From a virus, in the IMG/VR virus record IMGVR_UViG_3300019886_000028, positions 1-23,536 of that record: a stretch of DNA of 23,536 nucleotides. The stretch is one strand, 5' to 3'. Below, in pieces: positions 6,374-15,335 of this stretch. The notes below the pieces were generated by a model that saw only the letters and a program-made list of their open reading frames with translations, made no database searches and was not told where the DNA came from. The stretch's first letter is position 1. Every line of letters begins with the position of its first letter. The position numbers and the translations under genes are program-made.

Positions 6374-7048
6374 ATGCAAATGTCTGATCTAAGACCAGCC
6401 CGTGACTTCGCATTACAGTTTGGCTGCAAAGCATTAATCTATGGAGGAGCAGGCACGGGCAAGACACCAATTTTTAATACTGCTCCTCGCCCATTGCTGT
6501 TAGCGTGCGAGCCCGGACTACTATCAATGCGTGGTAGCACTATTCCAACGTATGAAGCTTACACAGCACCACGAATTGATGAATTTTTTAAATGGTTTTT
6601 TAATTCAGCAGAAACTAAAAACTTTGATACGCTTGGTATTGACAGCACGTCACAAATGGCAGATATATATCTTCAAGATGCCGCAAAGACTATTAAGCAT
6701 GGCTTGCAGCAATATGGCGAAATGGCAACCAAGACCATGAACCATTTGCGTACACTTTACTTTACACGTCAGAAGCACACGTATCTAATTTGTAAGGAGG
6801 AAATTTTAACAATAAATAATATTCAAATGAGACGGCCCTATTTTCCGGGTAAGCAGCTAAACGTTGACATACCTTTTATGTTTGATGTTATCGCGCATCT
6901 TTCTAAAGTGCCTATCCCGAATGTAGGAGAACAATTAGCCTTCCGTTGCATTGGTTCTTATGATGTAATGGCACGTAATAGAGTTGGTACACTAAACGAA
7001 TTTGAACCGCCGGACTTTACGGCAATTGTCAATAAATGTATGGTGTGA
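6374..7048 (+). CDS. Sak4-like RecA-fold ATPase (single-strand annealing)
   Basis: The 224-residue protein has Walker A GGAGTGKT (24-31) and a Walker B-like FDTLGIDST (84-92). These are followed by the QYGEMATKTMNHLRTLYF segment and a KHTYLICKEE strand, as in the AAA_24 / Sak4 family. Sak4 proteins are short RecA-like ATPases of phages that promote annealing or strand exchange, usually together with a phage SSB. An SSB-like gene lies downstream at 8240, supporting the assignment. The usual length is about 220-260 residues, so this copy is complete. A second ATG two codons in (6380) is possible. There is no clear Shine-Dalgarno. Confidence 0.8.
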   Translation: MQMSDLRPARDFALQFGCKALIYGGAGTGKTPIFNTAPRPLLLACEPGLLSMRGSTIPTYEAYTAPRIDEFFKWFFNSAETKNFDTLGIDSTSQMADIYLQDAAKTIKHGLQQYGEMATKTMNHLRTLYFTRQKHTYLICKEEILTINNIQMRRPYFPGKQLNVDIPFMFDVIAHLSKVPIPNVGEQLAFRCIGSYDVMARNRVGTLNEFEPPDFTAIVNKCMV

Positions 7049-8239: not shown

Positions 8240-8878
8240 ATGTCGCCGTACAACGCAACTTTCGACGCTAACCAATTCGAACCACGTCAATCTGCTGGTG
8301 GTCATCCAGTCGGAAATAAGTTTCCATTTGAAATTAGTCACACTGAAGTTAAGCCTACCAAGGATGGTACTGGTGGAATGTTTGTTGTGACATTCACAAC
8401 GCCAGCAGGACAGATTGACTATCGTTACAATCTGTTTAATCAGAGCGCTAAGGCTGTTGAAATTGCTCATGGTCAATTCTCAGCACTTTGCCGCGCTGTT
8501 GGTCGCTATCAGGTTGATTTTAACAATGATGGCGCAATCCTTCGCGGTGCTAAAGGTTGCTTGGATGTTAACTATCAAAAGGGCGAAGAACCTACCGCTG
8601 AGCGTCCTGAAGGTGGTTATGTTGAAGTCAAGAAAATCTATGACGTGAATGGCAATGAACCGGGCAAGGCTCCTGCCCAAGCTGCTCCTGCTCAGGGGTT
8701 TGCCAACCAAGGCCCAGCGCCAGCAGCAGGGCAAGTCCTACAGCAGCAGTCGGGCGGCGGTTGGGGGAATGGTGCCCAGCCTGCGGCAAACGCACCAGCG
8801 GCTTCCCAGCAGACCGCGCAAGCATGGTCTCCCGGTGGTCAAGGAAATACGGCAAATCCACCATGGGGTTCGCGCTAG
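8240..8878 (+). CDS. DUF669-like single-stranded-DNA-binding protein (212 aa)
   Basis: Residues 1-130 form the strand-rich core: KFPFEISHTEVKPTKDGTGG, MFVVTFTTPAG, YNLFNQSAKAVEIAHGQFSA and LCRAVGRYQVDF, as in DUF669-type phage proteins, which act as SSBs beside Sak4 annealases. Residues 140-212 are a Gln/Ala/Pro/Gly-rich disordered tail. Bacterial SSBs end in an acidic tip with Pro-Phe. This one ends NPPWGSR, with no acidic cluster, so it should not recruit host SSB partners in the usual way. The tail is much more GC-rich than the surrounding DNA. AAGGA lies about ten bases before the ATG. The DNA-binding role is inferred from the core pattern and from context. Confidence 0.7.
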   Translation: MSPYNATFDANQFEPRQSAGGHPVGNKFPFEISHTEVKPTKDGTGGMFVVTFTTPAGQIDYRYNLFNQSAKAVEIAHGQFSALCRAVGRYQVDFNNDGAILRGAKGCLDVNYQKGEEPTAERPEGGYVEVKKIYDVNGNEPGKAPAQAAPAQGFANQGPAPAAGQVLQQQSGGGWGNGAQPAANAPAASQQTAQAWSPGGQGNTANPPWGSR

Positions 8879-8974: not shown

Positions 8975-9832
8975 ATGCTTGATTTAAATAATAAAGATGA
9001 CCGCAATAAACTAGAAGAATTGATTACTGATGATATTAATCAGTTTTGCGCAACCTATTATGAAAGTGGCCATAGAAAGCATTTAGGAGCTTCAGAGTTA
9101 GGCGAGGAATGTTGGCGCAAACTCTGGTATGGTTTTAGATGGACTAAACGGCAGGTGCATGACGGCAGAATACTGCGCTTATTCAACGTTGGTCATTCTG
9201 CTGAGCCTCGCTTTATTACTTATTTGCGCGGCATTGGATTTGAAGTTAGGGAGTTTGATGAAAATGGCAAACAGTTTAGAATTAGTGGAGCGAACGGACA
9301 CTACGGTGGTTCCCTTGATGGAATGTGTAAAGCCCCCGCACGCTATGAAATTAGCGAAGATGTTGTACTCCTCAATGAATATAAAACTAATGGAACAGGA
9401 GCAGGTTACACCAATGTAGTCAAAGGGCTACAAAAAGCCAAGCCCAAACACTTTGCGCAAATGAGCCAATACGGTTTTAAAAAAGGTTTAAAGTACGGTC
9501 TATATTTAATTGAAAATAAAAATGACAGTGACATAACGGTTAAGATTGTTATACTTGATTGGAATTTAGGTGCTCAAATGGAGCGCAAGGCTGAAGAAAT
9601 AATTTTTGCTAAAGAGCCTCCCCCGCGCATATCTGATAACCCTGCGTTTCAAGCGTGCCAATGGTGCCATCAAAGAGATATCTGTCACAAAGGAGAACAG
9701 CCTGAACGTAATTGTAGAAGCTGTAGGCAATGTTCGCCAGTCGAAGAAGGACAATGGCATTGCTCTAAATTTAATGATGTTGTGCCTGATGATTTTATAG
9801 TCAAGGGTTGTCCAGATTGGTTGCCAATTTAA
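8975..9832 (+). CDS. Cas4/RecB-like PD-(D/E)XK nuclease with extra zinc module
   Basis: The 285-residue protein shows the catalytic core HSAE (74-77), GGSLDG with Asp115, NEYK with Glu135 and Lys137, and QMSQYG (162-167). Cys46 in GEECWRK together with Cys228, Cys231 and Cys237 (CQWCHQRDIC) matches the four-cysteine cluster of Cas4/AddB-type nucleases, likely Fe-S. A second Cys set at the C-terminus (247, 250, 253, 263, 279; CRSCRQC...C...GCPDW) is extra and probably binds zinc. Such nucleases process DNA ends in recombination and replication, which fits the Sak4 and helicase neighbours. AAAGG lies before the ATG. Confidence 0.8.
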   Translation: MLDLNNKDDRNKLEELITDDINQFCATYYESGHRKHLGASELGEECWRKLWYGFRWTKRQVHDGRILRLFNVGHSAEPRFITYLRGIGFEVREFDENGKQFRISGANGHYGGSLDGMCKAPARYEISEDVVLLNEYKTNGTGAGYTNVVKGLQKAKPKHFAQMSQYGFKKGLKYGLYLIENKNDSDITVKIVILDWNLGAQMERKAEEIIFAKEPPPRISDNPAFQACQWCHQRDICHKGEQPERNCRSCRQCSPVEEGQWHCSKFNDVVPDDFIVKGCPDWLPI

Positions 9833-9833
9833 A

Positions 9834-11429
9834 ATGATAACACCTAGATATTATCAGGAAGAAGCTCTAAAAGCTGTTTACCAATTCTTTATGACACATA
9901 AAGAAGGTAATCCACTTATCGGGCTTCCTACTGGTACTGGCAAGTCAGTACTACCTGCTATTTTTATTAATCGCGTTATGAAGCAATGGCCAAATCAACG
10001 TTTTCTTTTGGTGACGCACGTCAAAGAATTAATCGCGCAAAACGCTAATGTCATGATGAAAGTATGGCCTGAAGCGCCACTTGGAATTTACAGTGCTGGT
10101 TTAAAACTTAAACAAACTGCTCAGCCTATCGTGTTCGGCGGCATTCAAAGTATGATAAGAAATCCTGCTTTATTTGGCCATCGCGATATCGCTTTTGTTG
10201 ATGAAGCTCACTTGGTTTCTGCCAATGACAGCAGCCAATATCAAACTTTTTTTGCTCATTTAAAATTGATTAATCCGAATTTAAAGATTATAGGAATGTC
10301 CGCGACCCTGTACCGCATGGGCATGGGGATGATCACAGAAAACGGCCTTTTCTCGCATGTCGCGTATGACATGACGAATATGGACGGCTTCAATAGGCTG
10401 GTAAATGAAGGTTTTATTTCTCCTTTAATTCCACTCCGCACTAAAACAGAACTAGACATTTCAGACGTTAGCGTACAGCAAGGCGAGTTTGTCGCGACAC
10501 AACTTCAAGGGGCAGTTGATAAAGCTCCTATAACTTTTAAAGCACTTCAGGAATTGGTACATGCCGGGCAATCCAGAAAATCTTGGCTTATCTTTGCATC
10601 AGGAATTGAACACGCTGAACATATCGCTGAGCAACTTGGGGCTTTTGGTGTTGACTGCGCACCTGTCCATTCCAAGCGGCCAGCGGAATATAATGATGCC
10701 GCAATTAAAGCGTTTAAAGCAAATGAGCTTAGAGCTATCGTCAATTACGGAAAGCTTACGACAGGCTTTGATCACCCATCCATCGACTTAATCGGAATGC
10801 TGCGTCCTACGTTATCTGTGCCTCTATGGGTACAAATGTTAGGACGTGGTACTAGGCCAGCAGACGGCAAAAAGAATTGTTTGGTCATGGATTTTGCTCG
10901 TAATACACCGCGTCTAGGACCAATTAATGATCCTCAAATACCCACAAAGAAAAGCTCTGCTCCCGGTGAAATGCCAATTAAAATTTGCGAAAACTGCGGT
11001 ACGTACAATCATATCTCTGCTAGACTTTGCTGTAATTGTGGGGAGCAGTTTAGCTTTCAGCAAAAGTTAGTTGGCAAAGCAGGAAGCGACGAATTAATTA
11101 AAGTTGCTGCAACCGAAGCTGTACCGATCATTGAGACATTCAATGTAGTATCTGCTCACTACGTCAAGCACGATGGAAAATTTGGTAAGCCTCCTACTTT
11201 AAAAGCAACTTATTTCACCAGCGGATTAGCCTTTAAAGAATTTGTTTGCTTGGAACACAATGGAATGGCTGGTAAGATAGCGCGGGATTGGTGGCGACGC
11301 AGGCATAAGGAAGAACCACCTAGGACAGTTGATGAAGCATTAGGGTTTGTTTCGCAGTTACGAGTGCCTAGACAGATTAGAGTGCATGTTAATAAAACTT
11401 ATCCTGAGATTTTAAATGCGGAGTTTTAA
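9834..11429 (+). CDS. SF2 DEAD/DEAH-type DNA helicase with zinc ribbon (531 aa)
   Basis: The helicase motifs are in order: LPTGTGKS (motif I, about 35-42), IAFVDEAHL (motif II, about 122-130), GMSATLYR (motif III), FASG (motif IV), VNYGKLTTGFDHPS (motif V) and QMLGRGTRPADGK (motif VI). A C-terminal zinc ribbon follows (CENCGTYNHISARLCCNCGE, two CxxC pairs). The tail includes a basic DWWRRRHKEE segment that I recall from related phage helicases. It resembles UvsW-like or SSL2-like enzymes that remodel forks and recombination intermediates. The start directly follows the nuclease stop (one base apart), so the two are probably co-expressed. Confidence 0.85.
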   Translation: MITPRYYQEEALKAVYQFFMTHKEGNPLIGLPTGTGKSVLPAIFINRVMKQWPNQRFLLVTHVKELIAQNANVMMKVWPEAPLGIYSAGLKLKQTAQPIVFGGIQSMIRNPALFGHRDIAFVDEAHLVSANDSSQYQTFFAHLKLINPNLKIIGMSATLYRMGMGMITENGLFSHVAYDMTNMDGFNRLVNEGFISPLIPLRTKTELDISDVSVQQGEFVATQLQGAVDKAPITFKALQELVHAGQSRKSWLIFASGIEHAEHIAEQLGAFGVDCAPVHSKRPAEYNDAAIKAFKANELRAIVNYGKLTTGFDHPSIDLIGMLRPTLSVPLWVQMLGRGTRPADGKKNCLVMDFARNTPRLGPINDPQIPTKKSSAPGEMPIKICENCGTYNHISARLCCNCGEQFSFQQKLVGKAGSDELIKVAATEAVPIIETFNVVSAHYVKHDGKFGKPPTLKATYFTSGLAFKEFVCLEHNGMAGKIARDWWRRRHKEEPPRTVDEALGFVSQLRVPRQIRVHVNKTYPEILNAEF

Positions 11430-11431
11430 TA

Positions 11432-11605
11432 ATGCTGCGCACCTTAATAGCCCTAATAGTTTTCTGTTTAACCCTGAGCGTATCTTATGTGACCGATGCT
11501 AGACGCTATCGACATAGGCACCATTACGTTAAGCAGATTGTTCCTCTACCGCAGGAAAGAATAGCTACGTTTGAAGATTTGTGGAATGAAAGAAGTTTAA
11601 AATGA
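11432..11605 (+). CDS. small exported His/Arg-rich protein (57 aa)
   Basis: The 57-residue product begins MLRTLIALIVFCLTLSVSYV, a hydrophobic signal-like segment, followed by DARRYRHRHHYVKQIVPLP. GGAG lies directly over the helicase stop codon, eight bases before the ATG, and the 16-base site-plus-start (11420-11435) is identical to that at 5043-5058. The stop overlaps the DUF3310 start. The mature part is short, basic and His-rich, so metal or surface binding is conceivable. It is one of three exported-type proteins in the replication block. I do not recognise the family. Confidence 0.7.
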   Translation: MLRTLIALIVFCLTLSVSYVTDARRYRHRHHYVKQIVPLPQERIATFEDLWNERSLK

Positions 11606-11829
11606 ATGAAAAAATAAATCATCCTAATCATTACGGCGGTAAAGACAATCCTTATGAAGCTATCAAAGTTATTGAAGCATGGGAGCTTGGATTTAATTTA
11701 GGAAACACTGTAAAGTATATAAGCAGGGCAGGTAAAAAAGAAAGTTTATTGGAAGATTTAAAGAAAGCAGCTTGGTATCTTGATAGAGAAATTAAAAATG
11801 CAGAAAACGCATTGCCTAAGAGGACATGA
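11602..11829 (+). CDS. DUF3310 phage protein (75 aa)
   Basis: NHPNHYGGKDNPYEAIKVIE, then LGNTVKYISRAGKKESLLED and DLKKAAWYLDREI is the DUF3310 signature (H-P-x-H-Y, E-x-I-x-V-I-E, A/G-N-x-V-K-Y-x-x-R-x-G-K, L-x-K-A-x-W-Y-L). The family is widespread in phages, and a nucleotide-metabolism role has been proposed for related phage proteins, but the reaction here is not shown. The start overlaps the stop of the exported small protein (ATGA, 11602-11605), and the 3' end overlaps the next gene by 32 bases. Confidence 0.85.
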   Translation: MNEKINHPNHYGGKDNPYEAIKVIEAWELGFNLGNTVKYISRAGKKESLLEDLKKAAWYLDREIKNAENALPKRT

Positions 11830-12004
11830 ATATATAAAAGAAAATACAAGATGGTCTATCGGAAATAGCGGCAAGCCTCAACGTTCATGTAAGCAATGCA
11901 ATTCAATAAGAGTTAAATTAAAATATAAAAATGATAAAGCCTTTAGAGAAAAGAAGAAAGCTTATTCCAAGGAATATAAATGTACAAACAACCCAAACCA
12001 ATAA
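11798..12004 (+). CDS. small zinc-type Cys/His protein (68 aa)
   Basis: The product has CLRGHEYIKENTRWSI and SCKQCNSIRVKLKY, giving Cys6, His10, Cys31 and Cys34, a plausible zinc site. Its C-terminal half is very basic (KKKAYSKEYK). The C-x-x-GH-x-x-x-x-NT...R-x-C-x-x-C pattern is common in phage HNH-associated zinc segments, but no nuclease domain follows, so this may be a stand-alone or remnant module. The ATG at 11798 lies within the DUF3310 gene (32-base overlap). A TTG at 11780 is an alternative. Confidence 0.55.
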   Translation: MQKTHCLRGHEYIKENTRWSIGNSGKPQRSCKQCNSIRVKLKYKNDKAFREKKKAYSKEYKCTNNPNQ

Positions 12005-12222
12005 TGCGGCAAAATAATCATGCCGATTTTTATTCAGATGTTCACACTGCATTAGATAAAGTAATTAAAAATCCTATGACAATGCCGTATCAAAACTGTT
12101 TAAACTGTAAGCATTGGAATTTTGGAAAAGATTTGTGTACTAAGTTTGATGCAAAACCTCCGACTGAAATTATTGTTTATAGTTGTCCAGCCTATGAGGA
12201 TGATTTAGACATCCCTTTTTAG
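11980..12222 (+). CDS. small zinc-type protein ending in an SSB-like acidic tip (80 aa)
   Basis: Residues 38 onward read NCLNCKHWNFGKDLCTKFDA and IIVYSCPAYEDDLDIPF. The C-x2-C-x8-C-x-KF...P...C-P pattern matches the extra C-terminal module of the phage's own Cas4-like nuclease (about residues 250-280 there). The last residues, DDLDIPF, closely resemble the bacterial SSB C-terminal tip. AAGGA is well placed before the ATG at 11980. An ATG at 12004 sharing the previous stop has no Shine-Dalgarno. A role in binding host SSB partners or replication proteins is an inference. Confidence 0.6.
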   Translation: MYKQPKPIMRQNNHADFYSDVHTALDKVIKNPMTMPYQNCLNCKHWNFGKDLCTKFDAKPPTEIIVYSCPAYEDDLDIPF

Positions 12223-12406: not shown

Positions 12407-13417
12407 ATGGCACGCGCACCACGCTCAACCAAGACTGAACCTACCAAATCAAGTTTGCTAACTGCTCTAGAGTTCTGCTCATGCGTATCTGATAAGTTAG
12501 GAGCAAGCTATGAAACGCATATTGGTTTGCGAAATCATTGGGCTATTGCTTTCAATGGGATTGTTGCTGCTGGGTCACCAATTGTGGAAGACATTTACGC
12601 TCACCCACACAATTTATTGCTCATCGAAGCTTTGTCAAAATGTGATGATGTTTTTTCATTAACTCAGCTAGACAATGGCAGGCTTTCAATCAAGTCTGGT
12701 AAGTTCAAAGCTGTAGTGCCTTGTCTTGATCCTGCGTTGATGCAAGACGCGCTGCCTGATCCTTTGCTAGCTCCCATCACCAATAAATTTAGGGACGCTG
12801 TAGCGGCTGTTGGCGTACTCGCAAACGAAGATGCTCAACACGTTCTAATGGCTTCTGTGCTTATGAACGGTGCTTCTGTTATCTCTACCAATCGCGTGAT
12901 GTTGCTGGAATACTGGCATGGGTTAGACCTTCCGTTTAATATTCCATTGCCAAAAGAATTTGTAACAGCATTGGTGAAGTGCAAAAAGAATTTAACAGGC
13001 TTTGGATTTAGTCGCTCTAGCGCTACCTTCTATTTCGAAGATGGATGTTGGCTTAGGACGCAATTATATTCTGACGAATGGCCAGATGTTTCGCGCATTC
13101 TAAACCGCGAAGCTAATCTATGGAATATTGATCCGCAGTTTTTTAAAGCTCTAGAAAGTGTTGCGCCATTCTCAGATGATGGTAATGTTTATTCTGATAC
13201 AAATCTTTTAATGTCTCATGCTGATCATGGAATAGGGGCCGAGTTTGAATGTAACGGCATTCCGAAAGGATTTATTTATCCGATTAAACAATTAATGATT
13301 ATGAAACCATACGTTCGCAAAATTGATTATATGGCTAATGGAGTTGCTGATAGTAGCTATTGTCTGGTGTTTCAAGGGGATAGTTTGAGAGGAATGATCA
13401 GTGGTCGTCAACGCTGA
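12407..13417 (+). CDS. DNA polymerase sliding-clamp-like protein (beta-clamp fold, 336 aa)
   Basis: Sequence features resemble the bacterial DNA polymerase III beta clamp. ISTNRVMLLEYW (159-170) stands where ATDGHRLA is found, followed by LPFNIPLPKEFVTALVKC (175-192) as in the 'PRK-x-x-x-E-L' strand-helix. LYSDEWPDVSRIL (220-232) matches the FPDY-x-x-V-I/L-P signature. The length (336) is slightly below the usual 360-375. Clamps ring the DNA and tether polymerases. The gene ends inside the next gene, the family B polymerase (17-base overlap), which supports a joint function. The Asp/Gly/His of the ATDGHR motif are not conserved, so this is a divergent member. No clamp loader is seen in this window. 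Confidence 0.7.
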   Translation: MARAPRSTKTEPTKSSLLTALEFCSCVSDKLGASYETHIGLRNHWAIAFNGIVAAGSPIVEDIYAHPHNLLLIEALSKCDDVFSLTQLDNGRLSIKSGKFKAVVPCLDPALMQDALPDPLLAPITNKFRDAVAAVGVLANEDAQHVLMASVLMNGASVISTNRVMLLEYWHGLDLPFNIPLPKEFVTALVKCKKNLTGFGFSRSSATFYFEDGCWLRTQLYSDEWPDVSRILNREANLWNIDPQFFKALESVAPFSDDGNVYSDTNLLMSHADHGIGAEFECNGIPKGFIYPIKQLMIMKPYVRKIDYMANGVADSSYCLVFQGDSLRGMISGRQR

Positions 13418-15335
13418 AGGTCTAATAACCCTAGACCGCGCTGTAATGCTCAAACCCTATCAGCCTCGCCAATTCATTGAGCGAGAATATCTGACTGATG
13501 CTGAAATTCTAAGCTTCACTAACTATCCTGCGTTTGTGGATGTTGAATGCTATCCAAATTATTTTTTAATCAGTTTTAAAATTAATGGTAAGTTTCTATG
13601 CTTAGAGTGTGGGCAAAATCGTGGCTTCAATCCAAGAATGCTATCTTGGATAATGAACAGTTATAAAACCGTCGGATTTAATTCGATCAAATATGATCTA
13701 TTAATGATATGGCTTGCTTACACTACACAGGACACTCATGTTTTAAAAGATGCTTCAAACGATATCATCGTTAGGGAAATGCGAAAGCAAGACCTTCAAA
13801 AAGAATATCAGTTTTTTTCACCTAAGACTTCTCATGTTGACCTCATTGAAGTAGCTCCACTCAAAGGCTCATTAAAATTATATGGAGCTAGGCTTCATTC
13901 ACCTCGTATTCAGGAATTACCTTATCCAGATACACAAGAATTGAATGAAAAAGAAATTGAAATTGTTCGCAATTATAATTTCAATGACCTTGACGTTACA
14001 GAACAATTATATAATTTTATGAAAGAACGCTTGGAACTTCGCGAGGCTATGAGCATTGAGTATAACGAAGATTTAATGAGCAAGTCTGATGCTCAAATTG
14101 CAGAAGTTATTTTGGCTAAAGAAGTTGGAAAGCTAAACGGAAAGCGACCACAAAGAGCTACAATAGAAGCTGGTACTGTCTACCGCTATATCATTCCAGA
14201 TTATATCCAGTATAAAACGCCAACCTTAAACAGTTTATTAGAACGGCTCAGAGTTGCTAAATTCATTGTACAGCCTTCAGGCAAGATTGCTATTCCTGAA
14301 GAACTAAAGACATCTGTTCAAATTAATAAGGGGGTATACCGTCTTGGAATCGGTGGATTACATTCGTCTGAAGAAACTGTTACATATAAAGCAACGGAAG
14401 ATATGGCTATTGTCGATAGGGACGTGGCTAGCTATTATCCTAGGCTTATCACTACTCTTAAGTTATTTCCCGCATCCTGTGGTCCTAATTTCTTAGTTGC
14501 GTTTAATAAAATTATTGATATTCGTTTAGATGCCAAGAAAAAGAAAATCTTTTCCAGAGATAAAGGATTAAAGATTGTTATCAATGGAACATCAGGTAAG
14601 TTAAGTGATGTTTGGTCTATCTTTTACGCTCCTGATTTAACAATCCAAATGACTGTATCAGGTCAACTAGCGTTGCTAATGTTCATTGAATGGCTGGAGC
14701 TATCAGGTATACAAGTTATTAGCGCTAATACTGACGGCATTGTTATGCTAGTGACAAAAGATAAAGAAGAAACTTTAAAACAAATTGTAGCTCATTGGGA
14801 AAAGACAACAGGATTTGAAACAGAAGAAACTAGATACAAAAGCTATCATGCAAGGGATGTTAATGCTTATTTTGCTGTGAAAATGGACGGTAGCGTTAAA
14901 GTTAAGGGAAATCCTTATTCAGAAGTTGGCTCGCAATCAGGAACACAATTAGATGTTAATCCTTCAATACTTATCTGCTCTGACGCTATCAAATCCTTTC
15001 TTGCTAATGGCAAACCCATTGAGCAAACCATCAGAGAATGCCGAGACTTCACAAGATTTATCAACGTTAGACAAGCAAAGTCTCCCGGTGCCCACAAATC
15101 AGGGGAGTATTTGGGAAAGGTCCTCAGATGGTACTATGCGATTAGTGAAACAGGCTCAATTAACACAGTACAAGCTAATAACAAAGTAGCTGATAGTGAT
15201 GAAGCTAAGCCAGCAATGGATATGCCTAAAGACTGGCCAGACGATTTAAATTACCAATGGTACATAGACAAGGCTAACGAAATATTGTATGAAATTGGAT
15301 ATTTAACTAGACCTAAACAAGTGGAGTTCTTTTGA
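13401..15335 (+). CDS. family B DNA polymerase, compact (644 aa)
   Basis: The exonuclease motifs are present: FVDVEC (Asp47/Glu49), VGFNSIKYDL (Asn94, Asp99) and YNFNDLDVTEQLY (Tyr192, Asp196). The polymerase motifs are A: DVASYYPRLI (Asp341), B: KIVINGTSGK (Lys391, Asn395) and C: SANTDGIVML (Asp445). Motif C has N-T-D-G where D-T-D-S is usual; the second Asp, the catalytic one in the family, remains. At 644 residues it is shorter than the 750-900 of most phage family B enzymes. The GTG start overlaps the clamp gene and has AGAGGA seven bases upstream. The C-terminus ends TRPKQVEFF, which resembles a clamp-binding peptide. It should replicate the phage genome with proofreading. Confidence 0.85.
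   Translation: MVVNAEGLITLDRAVMLKPYQPRQFIEREYLTDAEILSFTNYPAFVDVECYPNYFLISFKINGKFLCLECGQNRGFNPRMLSWIMNSYKTVGFNSIKYDLLMIWLAYTTQDTHVLKDASNDIIVREMRKQDLQKEYQFFSPKTSHVDLIEVAPLKGSLKLYGARLHSPRIQELPYPDTQELNEKEIEIVRNYNFNDLDVTEQLYNFMKERLELREAMSIEYNEDLMSKSDAQIAEVILAKEVGKLNGKRPQRATIEAGTVYRYIIPDYIQYKTPTLNSLLERLRVAKFIVQPSGKIAIPEELKTSVQINKGVYRLGIGGLHSSEETVTYKATEDMAIVDRDVASYYPRLITTLKLFPASCGPNFLVAFNKIIDIRLDAKKKKIFSRDKGLKIVINGTSGKLSDVWSIFYAPDLTIQMTVSGQLALLMFIEWLELSGIQVISANTDGIVMLVTKDKEETLKQIVAHWEKTTGFETEETRYKSYHARDVNAYFAVKMDGSVKVKGNPYSEVGSQSGTQLDVNPSILICSDAIKSFLANGKPIEQTIRECRDFTRFINVRQAKSPGAHKSGEYLGKVLRWYYAISETGSINTVQANNKVADSDEAKPAMDMPKDWPDDLNYQWYIDKANEILYEIGYLTRPKQVEFF

Follow-up and report, generated by a model that had tools for sequence, protein, structure and literature searches.

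A candidate SSB C-terminal docking tip on a small cysteine protein, a predicted sliding clamp or a RadD-like helicase in phage replication cassettes

The window, that is, the whole stretch of DNA analysed here, is a 23.5-kb virus record (23,536 nucleotides) carrying a replication cassette whose features are collected in Table 1. The gene order of such cassettes is Sak4, SSB, Cas4 exonuclease, RadD-like helicase, tip gene, clamp and polymerase, and most of them contain Sak4, Cas4 and polymerase. The tip gene lies within -130 to +60 bp of the end of the helicase gene in 56 of 78 cassettes, and within 800 bp in 20 more; in the window, the gap from helicase to tip gene is 551 bp and holds three small ORFs. 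Between helicase and tip gene there seems to be an insertion, an HNH-endonuclease-like ORF at 11780-12004 (phrog_1492, E 6.5e-9) that overlaps a DUF3310 ORF (11602-11829) on one side and the beginning of the tip gene on the other.

Table 1. Replication genes of the window and parts of the small four-cysteine protein
Feature	Position	Strand	Basis or remark
Sak4-like annealing protein	6374..7048	+	phrog_124
Phage SSB, C-terminus NTANPPWGSR, no acidic residue there	8240..8878	+	phrog_6015, E 3.5e-35
Cas4-domain exonuclease, ends CPDWLPI, no tip	8975..9832	+	phrog_1990
RadD-like SF2 helicase, 531 aa	9834..11429	+	best PDB match RadD, E 1.2e-58
Four-Cys protein P0001, 80 aa, SSB-Ct-like C-terminus	11980..12222	+	phrog_23504; alignment of 39 relatives
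Predicted N-terminal helix, residues 11-30	12010..12069	+	AlphaFold2, pLDDT about 81-82
Cys module C40-x2-C43-x9-C53-...-P60-P61-...-C69	12097..12186	+	alignment
SSB-Ct-like tip DDLDIPF, residues 74-80	12199..12219	+	stop codon directly after
Predicted sliding clamp, 336 aa, ends SGRQR, no tip	12407..13417	+	phrog_947, E 1.2e-50
DNA polymerase, ends KQVEFF (15315-15332; clamp-binding-like)	13401..15335	+	phrog_1252

The window helicase matches the NCBIfam model heli_RadD_YejH with E 1.1e-78 and 265 bits, below the equivalog cut-off of 720, and by these profiles it is RadD-like and outside RadD proper. RadD-like helicases that bear no tip share a conserved end of their own, YPEI-x3-E-[FYW] (for example, window 11379-11426). 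Identification of the phrog_947 protein as a putative sliding clamp is supported because the clamp profile also matches DNA polymerase III beta in the PDB (E 6e-5); when homologues of this clamp were sought in bacterial genomes, one fragmentary match was all that appeared. The polymerases of 42 of 86 cassettes end in a Q-x-x-[LF]-F-like sequence, the classical clamp-binding motif. The C-terminal Cys module of the Cas4-type exonuclease (9695-9820) resembles the small protein, with E 5e-5 against the module profile, and at locus L163 the Cas4 protein itself ends in DSDIPF.

The tip gene starts with ATG behind an AAGGA ribosome-site-like sequence (11969-11973) and encodes 80 residues that end in ...CPAYEDDLDIPF and are followed by a stop, confirming the sequence-only reading, made before this analysis, that a real ORF closes here on DDLDIPF. 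Cysteines C40, C43, C53 and C69, proline P61 and the final Pro-Phe are invariant across 39 relatives, and P60 is nearly so. The four conserved cysteines support a putative zinc binder, and the earlier description as a zinc-type protein thus stands in the form of a prediction. P0001 matches phrog_23504, a family of unknown function, with E 1.7e-11, its residues 34-80 aligning with positions 29-73 of 73, a profile match that spans the Cys module through the C-terminus. No Pfam or NCBIfam family and no SSB PHROG was matched, and by these three libraries the protein has no OB-fold ssDNA-binding domain of the kind that defines SSB proteins (PF00436 or phage SSB). Its AlphaFold2 model is of middling confidence (mean pLDDT 72, pTM 0.39), and a fold search with this model against the PDB returned no match. 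RFC4/RFC5 chains also matched the profile of the small protein weakly (E 0.12-0.39), which we put down to chance.

How general is the tip? A tblastn search with the small protein against 50,697 phage records matched 90 of them, and 60 of the 60 listed matches reach the query's last residue. Full ORFs of ten diverse phages, namely those of Variovorax, Escherichia, Xanthomonas, Sphingomonas, Rhizobium, Pseudomonas, Vibrio, Paracoccus and Achromobacter and one labelled Synechococcus, all end in [IV]PF-stop. Bias towards tips was removed by collecting viral loci through the neighbouring genes, 80 by helicase and 80 by clamp, with the tip protein as query in neither, and by searching all ORFs of the resulting 138 distinct cassettes with a Cys-module profile built without the tip columns. 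This profile found 79 distinct small proteins, 73 of which end in [IV]PF with preceding acidic residues, three in [IV]PY and three otherwise, the tip being absolutely terminal in 76; when 8,267 other ORFs (60 aa or longer) were put to the same tip test, none passed. Because the listed tblastn matches run to the last residue and 76 of the 79 relatives found by the tip-less profile keep the tip at their terminus, a chance origin is excluded. The earlier reading had proposed aligning homologues to see whether the tip is conserved and terminal: it is both, standing at the very C-terminus, and it is acidic and resembles SSB-Ct. Some small proteins bear weakly acidic tips (WELFIPF, WLGEIPF), and the mean number of acidic residues in the last nine is 2.8 for the small protein, 3.7 for the clamp and 3.8 for the helicase. 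Only 5-19 residues separate the last cysteine of the small protein from the tip.

The same tip sits on two further proteins, the carrier being the clamp in 35 of the 138 distinct cassettes and the helicase in 12. The clamp bears it behind a tail that is usually 12-50 residues long (one such end reads GDMDDDIPF); Pseudomonas phage 73 and Burkholderia KL1 are of this type. In the helicase, the tail before the tip (SDFDDDIPF, for instance) is about 30-55 residues long; PaMx25, KS_A8, Vid5 and R7M are of this second type. Clamp- and helicase-type records searched whole, these six phages included, yielded no small tip protein, the sole matches being weak ones to the Cas4 C-terminal module. Six further named phages gave one tip in four: the helicases of CAjan, SE1 and Yut4 end in EDPDYVPF, DFDDDIPF and YDDDIPF, and the small protein of Lucius in EDKIPF; the PSTCR7 helicase has a degenerate end, PDEAPW, and AB_SZL7 has no tip. 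The end of the helicase of Salmonella phage SE1 is the same as that of E. coli SSB. In an AlphaFold2 model built on 34 sequences, which is weak evidence, the helicase-borne tip is a free tail with a pLDDT of about 32. The helicase tree, on which many branches have weak support, requires seven or more switches between the three carrier states. Judging from these protein ends, the tip does not belong to the small protein as such but can be detached, and three proteins serve as its carriers: the small protein, the clamp and the RadD-like helicase. A census of DDDIPF-stop ends in viral contigs turned up, besides SSBs, a 75-aa phrog_1811 protein (L205, 2619-2846, and three relatives), a phage SSB of phrog_15004 and more RadD-like helicases, at loci that also include L253 (4127-5641), L259, L264, L271 and L236.

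Carriers tend to exclude one another. Helicase and clamp are both visible in 110 cassettes, and 99 of these have exactly one tip, two have two and nine have none; 10,000 column permutations, which ignore relatedness, gave exactly one tip in 56.7 cassettes on average and 76 at most. A relatedness-aware test had just six pairs, a number at which significance is unreachable, and found four opposite, none the same and two ties (p 0.125). Both double carriers combine a weakened, non-acidic small-protein tip (EDHCFLIPF, EDHVMKIPF) with a strong clamp tip (LDDDIPF, IEDDIPF), and locus L163 has tips on both small protein and Cas4. The sequence-only reading had named homologues with the same zinc module and varied C-termini as the observation that would speak against it. 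Such ends occur in three of the 79 relatives (L085/L087, L172 and L173), and in exactly these three the clamp carries the tip, ending in DDDDVPF, EDDDIPF and GDDVPF, which strengthens the idea of an SSB-Ct mimic. No tip is visible in L040, L042, L046, L096, L127, L143, L160, L176 and L054 (about 8%), and the records of five tip-less cassettes contain no tip-like ORF over their whole length or the part that is assembled; IMG/VR contigs are partly fragments. Since some cassettes have no tip, it would be dispensable or replaced in some lineages.

The phage SSB of the window lacks acidic residues at its NPPWGSR end, as had been read from the sequence, and an acidic, SSB-Ct-like tip is found on none of 119 homologous phage SSBs. 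These proteins have their own non-acidic terminal motif around P-P-W-G-x-R/Q (window 8858-8875), with a tryptophan within the last nine residues in 117 of 119, and this motif may be a second, phage-specific docking tip. The original proposal of SSB-Ct mimicry therefore holds in that the tip is conserved, terminal and absent from the phage SSB, and has to be widened in that it is not specific to the small protein. Bacterial SSB uses its short docking tip to summon repair and replication enzymes; many phages appear to have detached this tip and transferred it to the small protein, the clamp or the helicase, in most cases to just one of them in a given phage.

The explanation that we favour, and which we consider rather probable, is that the tip is a replisome-borne SSB-Ct mimic, a selected docking peptide on one replisome component that holds an SSB-Ct receptor there. 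The C-terminal D/E-rich [IV]PF tip would be a self-contained docking peptide copying SSB-Ct (DDDIPF). The phages would coat their own ssDNA with an SSB that has no tip, and would attach the tip instead to one replisome part, namely the small Cys protein (as in the window), the clamp or the RadD-like helicase; the small protein itself would ride on helicase or clamp. The tip would enter the SSB-Ct pocket of a host protein and so hold this receptor at the phage replication complex. Bacterial receptors recognise SSB-Ct as DDDIPF, holding its terminal Phe and carboxylate in a basic-rimmed hydrophobic pocket (PMC10238739). The terminal Phe features are retained in the phage tips, whose letters remain those of the bacterial consensus in phages of many different hosts, and a receptor of the host is more likely than one of the phage. 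As the carriers belong to a common replisome and exclude one another, there would be one receptor, brought to the replisome once.

Which host protein might this be? We single out chi (HolC), a part of the host clamp loader, as one specific candidate, since these phages have a clamp gene of their own and no recognisable clamp-loader gene; other candidates are PriA, RecO, RecQ, topoisomerase III and host RadD. In 16 complete genomes we found no delta-prime-type clamp-loader signature, and AAA-family matches were weak except for one in R7M at a gene annotated as Clp protease; loading of the phage clamp may thus fall to the host loader. The chi subunit of the clamp loader binds SSB (PMC8092217). 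Recorded hosts of these phages are nearly all Proteobacteria, and the search for chi in 14 controls was positive for E. coli and Caulobacter and negative for all 12 non-proteobacterial ones; the Caulobacter match is at odds with the published confinement of HolC to gammaproteobacteria (PMC8092217). Two records labelled as Synechococcus phages carry the small protein, which counts against the explanation that we favour. We tentatively extend this explanation to a further, doubtful scheme, in which the tip, uncoupled from SSB, is a portable tag on clamp, helicase or adaptor that enlists the host loader (through chi) or another host receptor of SSB-Ct for the phage replisome, the Trp tip separating host from phage SSB traffic.

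The receptor might instead be the phage's own RadD-like helicase, stimulated by the tip, so that the small protein would be a helicase activator and helicase-borne tips built-in activators. The neighbouring helicase is RadD-like, SSB-Ct stimulates the ATPase of bacterial RadD (PMC10238739), the tip gene begins close to or right at the stop codon of the helicase gene in the 56 of 78 cassettes noted above, and the RadD pocket retains its hydrophobic residues across 128 phage helicases (F20 in 116 of 128, with L113 and L147 aliphatic). The pocket as a whole is kept only in part, however: R145 is K or R in 122 of 128, but the other two of its three arginines, R21 and R49, are gone from nearly all phage helicases. 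The helicase, moreover, falls outside RadD proper by Pfam and NCBIfam, and the tip of a helicase that carries its own was modelled as an undocked, disordered tail in AlphaFold2 on 34 sequences, itself weak evidence; we regard this alternative as unlikely. Another phage protein could also serve as receptor, whether Sak4 annealase, Cas4 nuclease or DNA polymerase, after the manner of the HK620 SSB or the T7 tails. All three are present in most cassettes, and the HK620 SSB brings Sak4 to ssDNA through its last six residues, NDYPPF (PMC5928155). Here, however, the SSB is encoded beside Sak4 and has its own Trp tip, making it the more natural Sak4 partner, and a private contact within the phage should drift, yet the IPF core keeps the bacterial consensus across many hosts, which leaves a phage receptor of this kind quite improbable.

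A decoy that competes host SSB off its partners, thereby disabling host repair or defence, would suit a small soluble protein with a free tip. It would require very high expression, since SSB-Ct binding is just micromolar (KD 5.4 uM for RadD, PMC10238739), and stoichiometric replisome parts, the clamp and the helicase, bear the tip equally well. Titration is thus very unlikely in our estimate, and of the two roles raised by the sequence-only reading, recruiting host SSB partners or titrating them, recruitment is favoured because stoichiometric replisome parts carry the tip. We give scarcely any credence to a reading without SSB-Ct, in which the C-terminus would bind the sliding clamp or simply be a structural end. 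The tip gene does adjoin the clamp gene, and L-x-I-P-F loosely resembles hexapeptide clamp motifs, but the tip has no Gln, is acidic and always absolutely terminal, and has the clamp itself as its carrier in 35 cassettes, and the phage polymerases already end in the classical K-Q-x-x-F-F.

SSB-Ct is a hub signal of bacterial DNA metabolism. If the replisome-borne mimic is real, these phages form a natural series with the signal taken off SSB, which would reveal what SSB-Ct alone does and would point to host factors required by phage replication; it would also assign a function to the unannotated family phrog_23504, and likewise to the tails that annotated clamps and helicases carry. Much-used phages are concerned, among them Pseudomonas phage 73, PaMx25 and the E. 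coli phages Halfdan and CAjan. Our literature searches, which covered open-access PMC and leave room for a description elsewhere, found no account of an SSB-Ct-like tip moved to a clamp, a helicase or a small protein.

Set beside known systems, the tip resembles bacterial SSB-Ct (PF00436 proteins) in having an acidic run and then I-P-F at the absolute C-terminus, and the phage clamp and helicase tips are placed, as in bacterial SSB, on a flexible tail. Unlike bacterial SSB, the phage carriers are not SSB-fold, ssDNA-coating proteins. In T7, both the SSB (gp2.5) and the helicase (gp4) have acidic C-terminal tails that end in an aromatic residue; the partner of these tails is the T7 polymerase, and their sequence is not I-P-F. 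Acidic, aromatic-ended tails thus occur on more than one replisome protein in both phage systems, whereas the tip described here is I-P-F, near-exclusive and hops among carriers; to our knowledge, carrier exclusivity and hopping have not been described for the T7 tails. The helicase encoded beside the tip gene is a homologue of E. coli RadD (PMC10238739, PDB 6jde/7r7j), from which it differs in that R21 and R49 of the SSB-Ct pocket are not conserved. The acidic tail of T7 gp2.5 is cited in the work on the HK620 SSB (PMC5928155), which ends in NDYPPF and shares with the tip carriers both an SSB-Ct-like terminus and a place in a phage operon that contains Sak4. HK620, however, bears its tip on the SSB, whereas in the cassettes described here the SSB is without a tip and another protein carries it.
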